Below, piece by piece: positions 28,729 through 34,734 of a stretch of DNA of 35,868 nt. The notes beneath the pieces were generated by a model. The model was not told the DNA's origin. It made no database searches and saw only the letters and a program-made list of their open reading frames with translations. A program made the translations under genes and the position numbers. How positions within the stretch are numbered: position 1 is the first letter of the stretch; every line of letters begins with the position of its first letter. Source of the DNA: Candidatus Kapaibacterium sp. (GTDB taxonomy: Bacteria; Bacteroidota; Ignavibacteria; Kapaibacteriales; WFXC01); NCBI GenBank assembly GCA_026996895.1, contig JALWJX010000117.1:1-35868 (forward strand), in the 5' to 3' direction.

Positions 28729-30003
28729 ATGCGATCTGTAATCGGGAGCGTAGGGAGTTTCCTCCTGATATTCCTTGTGATCCCACCGTGGCTATATGCG
28801 CAGGGAATGGAGGAACGCCAGGTATTTGGAGGGGAGGAGACGGTTTTGCGATTCGGTCTGGATTCAACCTCAAACTGGTGGATTTTAACCCAGCCCTATG
28901 AGCGGTATATGCGGCTTTACGTGAATGGGTACAAGTCTGCTGAAGCAGAGTATATTATGCGCCCCGTTTTTTCACCCGATGGGTTGCATTGGGGAACGGT
29001 GACCTATTTTCAAAATACGGTATCGGTGCTGCTGGATGGGCAAACGCTGGAGTTGGCGTATACCGTTGCGTATGATCTGCAATTTGCTGACGATGGGCTG
29101 ACTGCCAGCGTCGTTGGGTATATTGGCGGACAGCAGGAGCTGGTCCGGTTTCGATTTGCTGATGGAGAATGGAAGCAGAAGGAAACAGTGCCGCTGCCCC
29201 AGACGTTTGAAGGATCTATCGTCCAGGATCGCTCTCTGACCCGCTTTCTGTGTCGCGTTTCCGAAGGGAATCAATTCTCGGTGTTGATGGGAGATCGCAC
29301 CTTCGGTCCTTTTGATCAGATTCAGCATCTTCGATGGTGGCAGGATTCTCTCCCGCTGTTTGCTGGTCGCAATGGCGACTGGTGGGCAGTGTACCTGGGG
29401 TCGGAGCCGCTGCTCAGCAGTATTGACACGGTGTTTTCCATTCAGCTCAATCGCGATCGGAACGTAGCTGTCATTTTCTACAAGCGGTACCAGCTTTCGT
29501 ACATTGCCAAACTTGCGCCGGATGGGCAGTTGCAGCAAACGCAGGGATGGGATAAAGTGGAAGATGTAAAACTCCACCCATCAGCGACTGCTTATGGTGC
29601 GCTGGTACAGTGGAGGAATCAGCACTATTTTCTGCTGGATGGCACGCGTTATCCCGTGCGTCGGCAGCATACAAAACTGCAAATGCTTTATGATGGCAGC
29701 GGCTACTATTGCCTGGAATGCCGGCAACTGTGCGATTTGATGGTTAATGGCGAGCGATTGTCCTTGCAGCTTCGGGCATCGTCCCAGCTTCAATCGTTTC
29801 TGTTTTTGCCCCAATCGCAGATGTTTGCGTATGTGTATGGACCGAATTTTTATGTGCATTCACTCAAGAGTCGGCAGACAGTGCTCAGTTATCAGTACGA
29901 CCGGTTTTCTTCCATTGTGTACAACTGGTATGCGCAGAGCGTCGAGGTTCTGGCAAAGCGTGGCAATTTGCTCTATTTACTGCGGTATTCTCTGGTCCCA
30001 TAG
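28729..30003 (+). CDS. exported protein of unknown function, beta-propeller-like
   Basis: A 424-residue protein with a clear signal peptide (MRSVIGSVGSFLLIFLVIPPWLYAQ). The rest is rich in short beta-strand pairs with recurring aromatic-Asp/Gly turns (for example SPDGLHWGTVTYF, FADDGLTASVVGYI, LSYIAKLAPDGQ), as in WD40-like or NHL-like propellers, but no family is recognised. It has four Cys residues, two in CLECRQLC. The open frame extends upstream to 28657; the start at 28729 is chosen because the signal peptide begins there. It stands alone between sucC and a glycosyltransferase. Confidence 0.72.
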   Translation: MRSVIGSVGSFLLIFLVIPPWLYAQGMEERQVFGGEETVLRFGLDSTSNWWILTQPYERYMRLYVNGYKSAEAEYIMRPVFSPDGLHWGTVTYFQNTVSVLLDGQTLELAYTVAYDLQFADDGLTASVVGYIGGQQELVRFRFADGEWKQKETVPLPQTFEGSIVQDRSLTRFLCRVSEGNQFSVLMGDRTFGPFDQIQHLRWWQDSLPLFAGRNGDWWAVYLGSEPLLSSIDTVFSIQLNRDRNVAVIFYKRYQLSYIAKLAPDGQLQQTQGWDKVEDVKLHPSATAYGALVQWRNQHYFLLDGTRYPVRRQHTKLQMLYDGSGYYCLECRQLCDLMVNGERLSLQLRASSQLQSFLFLPQSQMFAYVYGPNFYVHSLKSRQTVLSYQYDRFSSIVYNWYAQSVEVLAKRGNLLYLLRYSLVP

Positions 30004-30245
30004 CGGAGTACCAGTTAGCATACGCGGAGCTCCCTTGAGCTTGAACGTCTTACCTGATCTGTGGAAAGGAAGAAACGTCGGCAGGTTCTGCATCGCGGAG
30101 ATTTCTGATAGGCTTGTTGTTTTTTCTCCTCTGACTTTCAGGGCAAAGTGCGACATTGTGAGATTTTGGAAAAAGGGTACAATAAGCAGAACGGGAGATG
30201 GTCACTGCACTGCCTGGTATTTGGTGAGAAGGCAGTGGAAAAACG
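30004..30245. other. intergenic region before glycosyltransferase gene
   Basis: 242 bp with no credible gene. It contains the promoter candidate listed at 30156-30183 and a T-rich stretch at 30117-30126 without a clear stem before it. Nothing else was recognised. Confidence 0.3.
30156..30183 (+). promoter_or_regulatory. sigma-70-like promoter candidate
   Basis: TTGTGA, a 16-bp spacer, then TACAAT (four and five of six consensus bases), 63 bp before the glycosyltransferase start. It is the best promoter-like pair in the 242-bp gap. Confidence 0.35.
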
Positions 30246-32134: not shown

Positions 32135-33787
<1,653 letters not shown>

Positions 33788-33988: not shown

Positions 33989-34010
33989 GGCACGCTGAGG
34001 CGTGCGCTCC
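33989..34010 (-). repeat. GGGAGCGC-hairpin repeat, copy 1
   Basis: Read on the - strand: GGAGCGC, then stem CACGC/GCGTG around CTCA. Same layout as the other copies, with a different stem sequence that still pairs perfectly. Confidence 0.65.
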
Positions 34011-34025
34011 ACAGTCGCAACCCAT

Positions 34026-34053
34026 TGGGAGCGCCGACTTTAGCTGGCAAAAG
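34026..34053 (+). repeat. GGGAGCGC-hairpin repeat, copy 2
   Basis: TGGGAGCGCCGACTT then TAGCTGGCAAAAG. It is close to copy 3, but its GCCGAC/GCTGGC stem carries a mismatch and a G-T pair. Confidence 0.7.
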
Positions 34054-34079
34054 ATAAAAGGATGCACTGGCGTAAATAT

Positions 34080-34107
34080 GTAGGGGCGACCGGCCGGTCG
34101 CCCCTAC
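34080..34107. repeat. perfect 28-bp GC-rich palindrome
   Basis: The left arm GTAGGGGCGACCGG is followed at once by its exact reverse complement. With no spacer it would be a very stable cruciform or hairpin. Similar GTAGGGGCGACC palindromes are dispersed in several thermophilic and cyanobacterial genomes as far as I recall; not verified. Confidence 0.85.
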
Positions 34108-34145
34108 GGGTGCAGGTGATGGCGACCCGCCGGATTGCGCCGAAC

Positions 34146-34173
34146 TGGGAGCGCCGACTTCAGTCGGCAAAGG
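34146..34173 (+). repeat. GGGAGCGC-hairpin repeat, copy 3
   Basis: TGGGAGCGCCGACTT then CAGTCGGCAAAGG. The stem GCCGAC-TTCA-GTCGGC is perfect. It differs from copy 2 at three positions in the first 25. Confidence 0.75.
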
Positions 34174-34196
34174 CGCACACGGAAGTGTACGCTCCC
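34172..34196 (-). repeat. GGGAGCGC-hairpin repeat, copy 4
   Basis: On the - strand: GGGAGCGT then ACAC-TTCC-GTGT. It abuts copy 3 in opposite orientation. Confidence 0.65.
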
Positions 34197-34198
34197 GG

Positions 34199-34220
34199 AC
34201 ACACGAAGGTGTGCATTCCC
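34199..34220 (-). repeat. GGGAGCGC-hairpin repeat, copy 5
   Basis: On the - strand: GGGAATG then CACAC-CTTC-GTGTG. The leading word is slightly degenerate, the stem is perfect. Confidence 0.6.
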
Positions 34221-34381: not shown

Positions 34382-34514
34382 GGGGCATGCTGCATTTGGG
34401 GCATGCTGCATTTGGGGCATGCTGCATTTGGGGCATGCTGCATTTGGGGCATGCTGCATTTGGGGCATGCTGCATTTGGGGCATGCTGCATTTGGGGCAT
34501 GCTGCATTTGGGGC
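34382..34514. repeat. 16-bp minisatellite, eight identical copies
   Basis: The unit GGGGCATGCTGCATTT is repeated eight times without a mismatch (34382-34509), plus a partial ninth GGGGC. Each unit contains the palindrome GCATGC. The 16-bp period is not a multiple of three, so the array reads through three frames and contains no stop on the - strand. Confidence 0.97.
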
Positions 34515-34734
34515 GCGAACCCCCACCTACCCTTCCTTCTCTGATTGCTTTCTGCTGCTGATTTCTTCGCTCCGTTTCTCGGTTGTGTGTCGGTAGTAGA
34601 AGGTGGGAAGTGGTCGAAAGGTTTGGAGTAGTGGTGAACCATCACAGATCAACTTTTTCATTCAAACTTTTTTCAACAAACAACAACTTCAACACAACGA
34701 AACTGGAATGAAGAACAAACAAAGGAGAAAGCAA

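Follow-up and report, generated by a model that had tools for sequence, protein, structure and literature searches.

A GGGAGC-foot REPIN population in Candidatus Kapaibacterium that has probably outlived its transposase

Five small hairpins at one end of a window of 35,868 nucleotides (the whole stretch of DNA that was analysed) are members of a REP/REPIN family whose copies number at least 161 in their genome. We think it probable that they represent a GGGAGC-foot REPIN population that was once copied by a RAYT, that has since been left without it, and that survives as decaying intergenic mosaic clusters. The window comes from a 2.73 Mb genome (G000), which we compared with two sister genomes of the same genus, Candidatus Kapaibacterium (G003 and G004). 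All three are draft MAGs, 97–99% complete.

All five hairpins of the original prediction were recovered at their positions and in both orientations, although their leaders and stems needed minor correction. E3 (34147–34168, plus strand) is a class-L hairpin with leader GGGAGC, stem GCCGAC/GTCGGC and loop TTCA, and E4 (34175–34196, minus strand) is a class-R hairpin with leader GGGAGC, stem GTACAC/GTGTGC and loop TTCC. They form the left and right halves of a complete REPIN (34147–34196): an L hairpin, a 6-nt spacer and an inverted R hairpin, with GGGAGC...GCTCCC ends. Further REPIN halves lie beside this unit: E1 (33990–34011, minus strand; class R, leader TGGAGC, stem GCACGC/GCGTGC, loop CTCA), E2 (34027–34048, plus strand; class L, leader GGGAGC, stem GCCGAC/GCTGGC with one mismatch, loop TTTA) and an extra class-R hairpin, E5 (34199–34220, minus strand; leader GGGAAT, stem GCACAC/GTGTGT, loop CTTC). 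A GTAG "double-foot" palindrome of a second REP family (34080–34107) sits between E2 and E3, and the composite block from E2 to E4 that includes it (34026–34198) is found again, complete or in part, in both sister genomes. Upstream of the hairpin cluster is a chaperonin gene of the cpn60/GroEL family (32156–33787, plus strand; PF00118, E = 1.2e-81). An Rfam search of the window gave no match.

Perfect pairing had been claimed for four of the five stems; over the full 6 bp, E4 and E5 each include one G-T pair and E2 has an A-C mismatch. The G003 orthologue of E2 is fully paired (GCCGGC/GCCGGC), and that of E1 reads GCACAC TTTA GTGTGC. The exact octamer GGGAGCGC is confined to E2 and E3. Elsewhere in the window, at 34382–34516, a 16-nt tandem repeat, GGGGCATGCTGCATTT, has 8 exact units versus 3 in the orthologous G004 stretch (L191); this array is a variable-number repeat.

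The basic unit of the family is an inverted pair of 50–56 nt, ACTGGGAGC-hairpin-spacer-hairpin-GCTCCCAGT, with the consensus ACTGGGAGC-GCCGRC-TTTA-GYCGGC-AAAnAA(T)-GCACNC-TNAA-GNGTGC-GCTCCCAGT. The single-hairpin consensus is ACYGGGAGC followed by a 6-bp stem and a tetraloop. Class L comprises the stems GCCGAC/GTCGGC, GCCGGC/GCCGGC and their relatives; class R comprises GCACAC/GTGTGC, GCACGC/GCGTGC, GCACCC/GGGTGC and theirs. The loops differ as well: TTTC is the loop of 56 of 214 L hairpins and of none of 144 R hairpins (Fisher 1e-14, a descriptive value since the copies are related). Head-to-head pairs account for 128 of 291 close neighbours, with a median gap of 8 nt. These 128 pairs, all within 60 nt, are L+R in 118 cases, L+L in one and R+R in none, with an unclassed stem in the other 9, counts that refer to copies with common descent and not to independent events. 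The REPIN unit is thus nearly always a heterodimer of one GCCGRC and one GCACRC hairpin. Homodimers are so rare possibly because cells delete the near-perfect 50-nt palindrome that they would form. Judged by eye, the foot base showed no link to the upstream dinucleotide. Similarity among doublets (L 0.885, R 0.852) exceeded that among isolated hairpins (0.519, 0.485), a comparison on which we do not rely because chance matches are present among the isolated hairpins.

We then asked how large the family is and where it occurs. The leader-and-loop pattern GGGAGCGNNNNNYTTCR matched 46 times in the 2.73 Mb of the window's genome versus 0 times for a reversed control. A covariance-model search of the genome and its relatives, the check proposed with the prediction, confirmed the family: a model built from 42 hairpins found at least 161, 172 and 173 copies in G000, G003 and G004, respectively (E ≤ 1, best 150 candidates scored). 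Nine of 119 genomes, G000 included, had a match at E ≤ 0.1; under stricter filters across the 119, the genus trio had 72–76 matches each and the other six genomes 1–3 each. The exact 23-mer GGGAGCGCCGACTTTCGTCGGCA was found in 25 stretches of a genome-contig collection, all from two Candidatus Kapaibacterium MAGs, which are G003 and G004, with agreeing coordinates. Viral contigs held no match for either hairpin class, and we found no prior report of this family in the open-access literature searched.

The anatomy of the copies was read from about 2.08 Mb of the three genomes, a non-random sample in which many stretches were picked for holding REPs. A stem-blind leader-and-loop pattern gave 410 matches in it versus 2 for the reversed control, and a script counted 566 hairpins with at least 5 pairs. 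Only 21.6% of these 566 lie inside ORFs of at least 150 aa, which take up 81.5% of the bases.

By most tests these hairpins are REPs and REPINs, and they function like them. They are short and numerous (a 22-nt hairpin plus foot, within the 20–40 nt of REPs) and mostly extragenic, and the inverted pair with its short spacer is over-represented, as in REPINs. The foot is conserved and reads CTGG/CCGG-GA-GC; it is neither an unpaired GT[AG]G nor CGTC, and the consensus also lacks the 8–9 bp stem and CCA tail that go with the CGTC foot in the CGTC REP superfamily. Subclass 2.6 and class 3 REPs are likewise described without GT[AG]G in PMC6006769. Because the strict GT[AG]G test failed, the best name is GGGAGC-foot REP. 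The suggestion that the elements are REP-like is thus borne out by high copy number, extragenic position, inverted dimers, a conserved asymmetric foot and, as described below, same-foot hairpins around the RAYT gene of a relative.

The stems had been read as compensatory variation, hence as evidence of selection for structure. Pairing is indeed general: of the 410 stem-blind matches, 299 pair at all 6 positions, 71 at 5 and 40 at 4 or fewer, so that 370 of 410 copies hold 5 or 6 pairs. The six-pair fraction was 73%, versus 27% after right arms were redealt among copies. Stem covariation across copies scored 0.465 versus 0.175 when shuffled (0/500; copies preselected for at least 5 pairs). To see change in place, we used a strict set of 35 orthologous copies, each with at least one copy fully paired, in three-genome comparisons that are not all independent. 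Divergence was 5.7% in the leader, the least changed part, 9.0% in the stem, 14.3% in the loop and 11.1% in the flanks. Among 35 changed pairs, 18 were broken, 14 were kept through a one-sided (G-T) change and 3 had changed on both sides. Pairing was kept in a fraction of 0.49 versus 0.40 in a neutral simulation at flank rates (P = 0.13), and there were 3 double changes with pairing kept versus 1.2 in the simulation (P = 0.12). Selection on pairing in place was therefore not detected at the 35 orthologous copies, where 35 changes give limited power. A looser comparison of 129 pairs, with 14 double changes that kept pairing, was rejected because repeats misalign within clusters, and was replaced by the strict 35 pairs. 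Thus, the covariation across copies is real, but orthologous stems lose pairing within neutral expectation. The existence of two hairpin classes, together with inherited variants, is the main cause of the differences between stems; given the near-neutral orthologous change, most of the variation was inherited from the amplifying pool.

Entire mosaic clusters, made of REPINs, GTAG palindromes and CCCTCTCCC and GGACAACCC hairpin units, distinguish the sister genomes. Some clusters found in G004 are missing from G000 and G003; one such case is window 29993–30172, where G004 holds about 550 bp of mosaic repeats. The two additional hairpin units, CCCTCTCCC..GGGAGAGGGTTAGGGTGAGGG and GGACAACCC..GGGTTGTCC, were seen in clusters at L198, L191, L204 and others. 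The cluster differences, internal indels included, are bounded by repeats or replace whole intergenic regions. Orthologous clusters of the three genomes yielded no clean empty site, no clean single-REPIN insertion and no target duplication. REPIN identity was 0.799 within a genome versus 0.794 between genomes and so gives no sign of a recent burst.

We looked for the transposase in the genus. PF01797 at E ≤ 0.001 had no match in the three genomes, although it matched 67 of the 119 searched. An initial reading that the genus has no Y1 transposase at all was overturned by weaker PF01797 matches, by NF047646 (REP-associated tyrosine transposase) and by a protein search. At E ≤ 10, PF01797 had two weak genus matches, which are relatives of NF047646 below its cut-off. 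NF047646 itself had 3, 3 and 0 matches at E ≤ 0.01 in G000, G003 and G004 (the third in G000 and in G003 given without position). The protein search placed RAYT-like genes at C109 and C23 of G000 and at C44 and C38 of G003, and a broken one at C80 of G004; a PDB search with the protein had no match. The RAYT-like genes of L252 and L270 (G000 C23, G003 C38) and of L251 (G003 C44) adjoin genes that look, by eye, like type I restriction-modification genes (hsdM/hsdS), and the homologues at C23 and C38 have neighbours in common. No GGGARC-led hairpin was present in the genus RAYT-like loci read (L251, L267, L268, L270). These genes are instead linked to the second REP family: an identical 28-nt GTAG palindrome occurs at window 34080–34107 and, in frame, in the RAYT-like C109 gene of the same genome (L267:1752–1779, VGATGRSPLQ). 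This palindrome has GTAG at one end and CTAC at the other, as double-foot GTAG REPs do, and such REPs are described in frame in subclass 2.4 TnpAREP genes in PMC6006769. From its motif and in-frame REP, the genus RAYT-like gene appears to be subclass-2.4-like; the genus genes are of another type than the GGGAGC-flanked RAYT.

That RAYT was found in G007, a relative of the same order. Its gene matched NF047646 at E = 1e-25 and the TnpAREP structure PDB 4er8 at E = 5e-6, and its 3.3-kb locus (L281) holds 8 GGGARC-led hairpins, on both sides of the gene and with the same CTGGGAGC foot, including CTGGGAGCGCCGGCA.., CTGGGAGCGCCGCCT.. and CTGGGAACGCGGGCG... They share the foot and part of one stem with the genus family, not the full sequence. 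Of the 30 RAYT loci read (L278–L307; the best-scoring, not all NF047646 matches), 26 had no GGGARC-led hairpin, L280, L299 and L301 had one to three each, of other composition, and such a cluster occurred only in L281. The search for a RAYT thus had a divided outcome, with a same-foot locus in G007 but without these hairpins at the RAYT-like genes of the genus. Four G007 genes of the genus type sit among GTAGGGGC/GGGGCACG palindromes. We also observed that at G007 C1 141494–142427 (L088, L281) the RAYT and REPs fall within one 1288-aa ORF with DNA-methylase-like sequence (by eye), so these REPs would be translated in a gene.

Taken together, these results suggest a population that predates the split of the three species. 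By analogy with other REPINs, a RAYT (TnpAREP), which we infer once copied these REPINs, would have acted on single-stranded DNA, binding, cutting and rejoining the foot plus hairpin. Today the copies would be evolving at close to the neutral rate, within intergenic mosaic clusters in which units come and go, apparently via recombination between repeats. We found no RAYT locus of the G007 type in the genus. Most likely the cognate RAYT was lost. Less probably, it lies in an unassembled part of the genomes, which are draft MAGs, or has diverged so far that it was overlooked, as the genus RAYT-like genes were by PF01797 at E 0.001. Only tentatively, with somewhat less than even confidence, do we put forward the full description: a REP type with linkage to a RAYT, a foot of CYGG in place of GT[AG]G and an almost obligate heterodimer, decaying neutrally after genus-wide loss of its RAYT.

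The population would not be orphaned if the subclass-2.4-like, GTAG double-foot-linked RAYT-like genes of the genus mobilised it in trans. The NF047646-type genes of G000 and G003 carry the HUH motif and WQ, and both REP families are interleaved within the same clusters, as this idea would have it. We nevertheless consider it unlikely, given that the genus RAYT-like loci read hold no GGGARC hairpins, that G007 keeps genes of the same type amid GTAGGGGC-type palindromes and GGGAGC hairpins at a different RAYT, and that copies within a genome are not more alike than copies between genomes. At the ends of compact REPINs the consensus forms perfect terminal inverted repeats, about 11 nt long, and such units could be taken for MITEs derived from a conventional DDE transposon whose terminal repeats are ACTGGGAGCGC. 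However, each half forms a hairpin by itself and carries a conserved foot, and among 291 close neighbours single hairpins (72), the inverted order (-+; 48) and same-strand neighbours (43) are common. With orthologous indels bounded by repeats and neither target duplication nor clean empty site seen, a MITE origin is very improbable.

Just as improbable is a role at the RNA level, as terminators, mRNA stabilisers or small RNAs whose hairpin structure is maintained by selection. The hairpins do fold well as RNA, the window cluster lies downstream of the chaperonin gene, and REPs are in excess between convergent ORFs (133 of 322 intergenic REPs versus 136 of 676 intergenic gaps). Yet orthologous stems have diverged by 9.0% versus 11.1% for flanks, and the 18 broken pairs out of 35 changed are within neutral expectation, with the limited power of 35 changes.

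A REPIN population without its RAYT bears on a question of REPIN theory, namely whether populations survive without their transposase. The three sister genomes seem to have no cognate RAYT yet keep at least 160 copies each, and would thus be a natural RAYT-less REPIN population. Because orthologous change is near neutral in these seemingly RAYT-less genomes, REPIN decay becomes directly measurable; if this is true, a neutrally decaying population is a clock for REPIN extinction. Our results also call for caution in covariance-based RNA calls: stem covariation in a family can stem from inherited variants and not from selection on each copy.

Among the closest known systems is the Pseudomonas putida GTAG-1 REP, TGTGGGAGCGGGC..GCCCGCGAA (PMC2817692, PMC3733652), which is also a hairpin with an unpaired, asymmetric, GGGAGC-containing foot. 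Pseudomonas GTAG-1 REPs further resemble our family in the unpaired GA beside the foot, inverted dimers, extragenic position, hundreds of copies and linkage to a RAYT. In contrast, the Kapaibacterium foot is CTGG/CCGG where theirs is GTAG/GTGG, the tetraloop is TTTA/TTCA/TTTC, the tail is AA or AT, each dimer combines two hairpin classes, and no cognate RAYT was found in the Kapaibacterium genome. Double-foot GTAG REPs of subclass 2.4 TnpAREP (PMC6006769) fit the palindrome at 34080–34107 and the genus RAYT-like gene, and are a different family from the GGGAGC hairpins. CGTC-tagged REPs are similar in being REPs without a known dedicated transposase, but their stems are 8–9 bp, those of Kapaibacterium 6 bp, and Kapaibacterium has no CGTC foot (PMC3733652). 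E. coli REPs have a GTAG foot and a stem bulge that is required (PMC8266576), whereas the Kapaibacterium stems are perfect 6-mers. Under the guide rule published in PMC8266576, a CTGG foot would be predicted to select CC or CA. The mosaic clusters and the joining of two related REP types in one dimer are like the E. coli REP/BIME (Y with Z1/Z2), and E. coli genomes without a RAYT gene still hold REPINs (PMC8049555).
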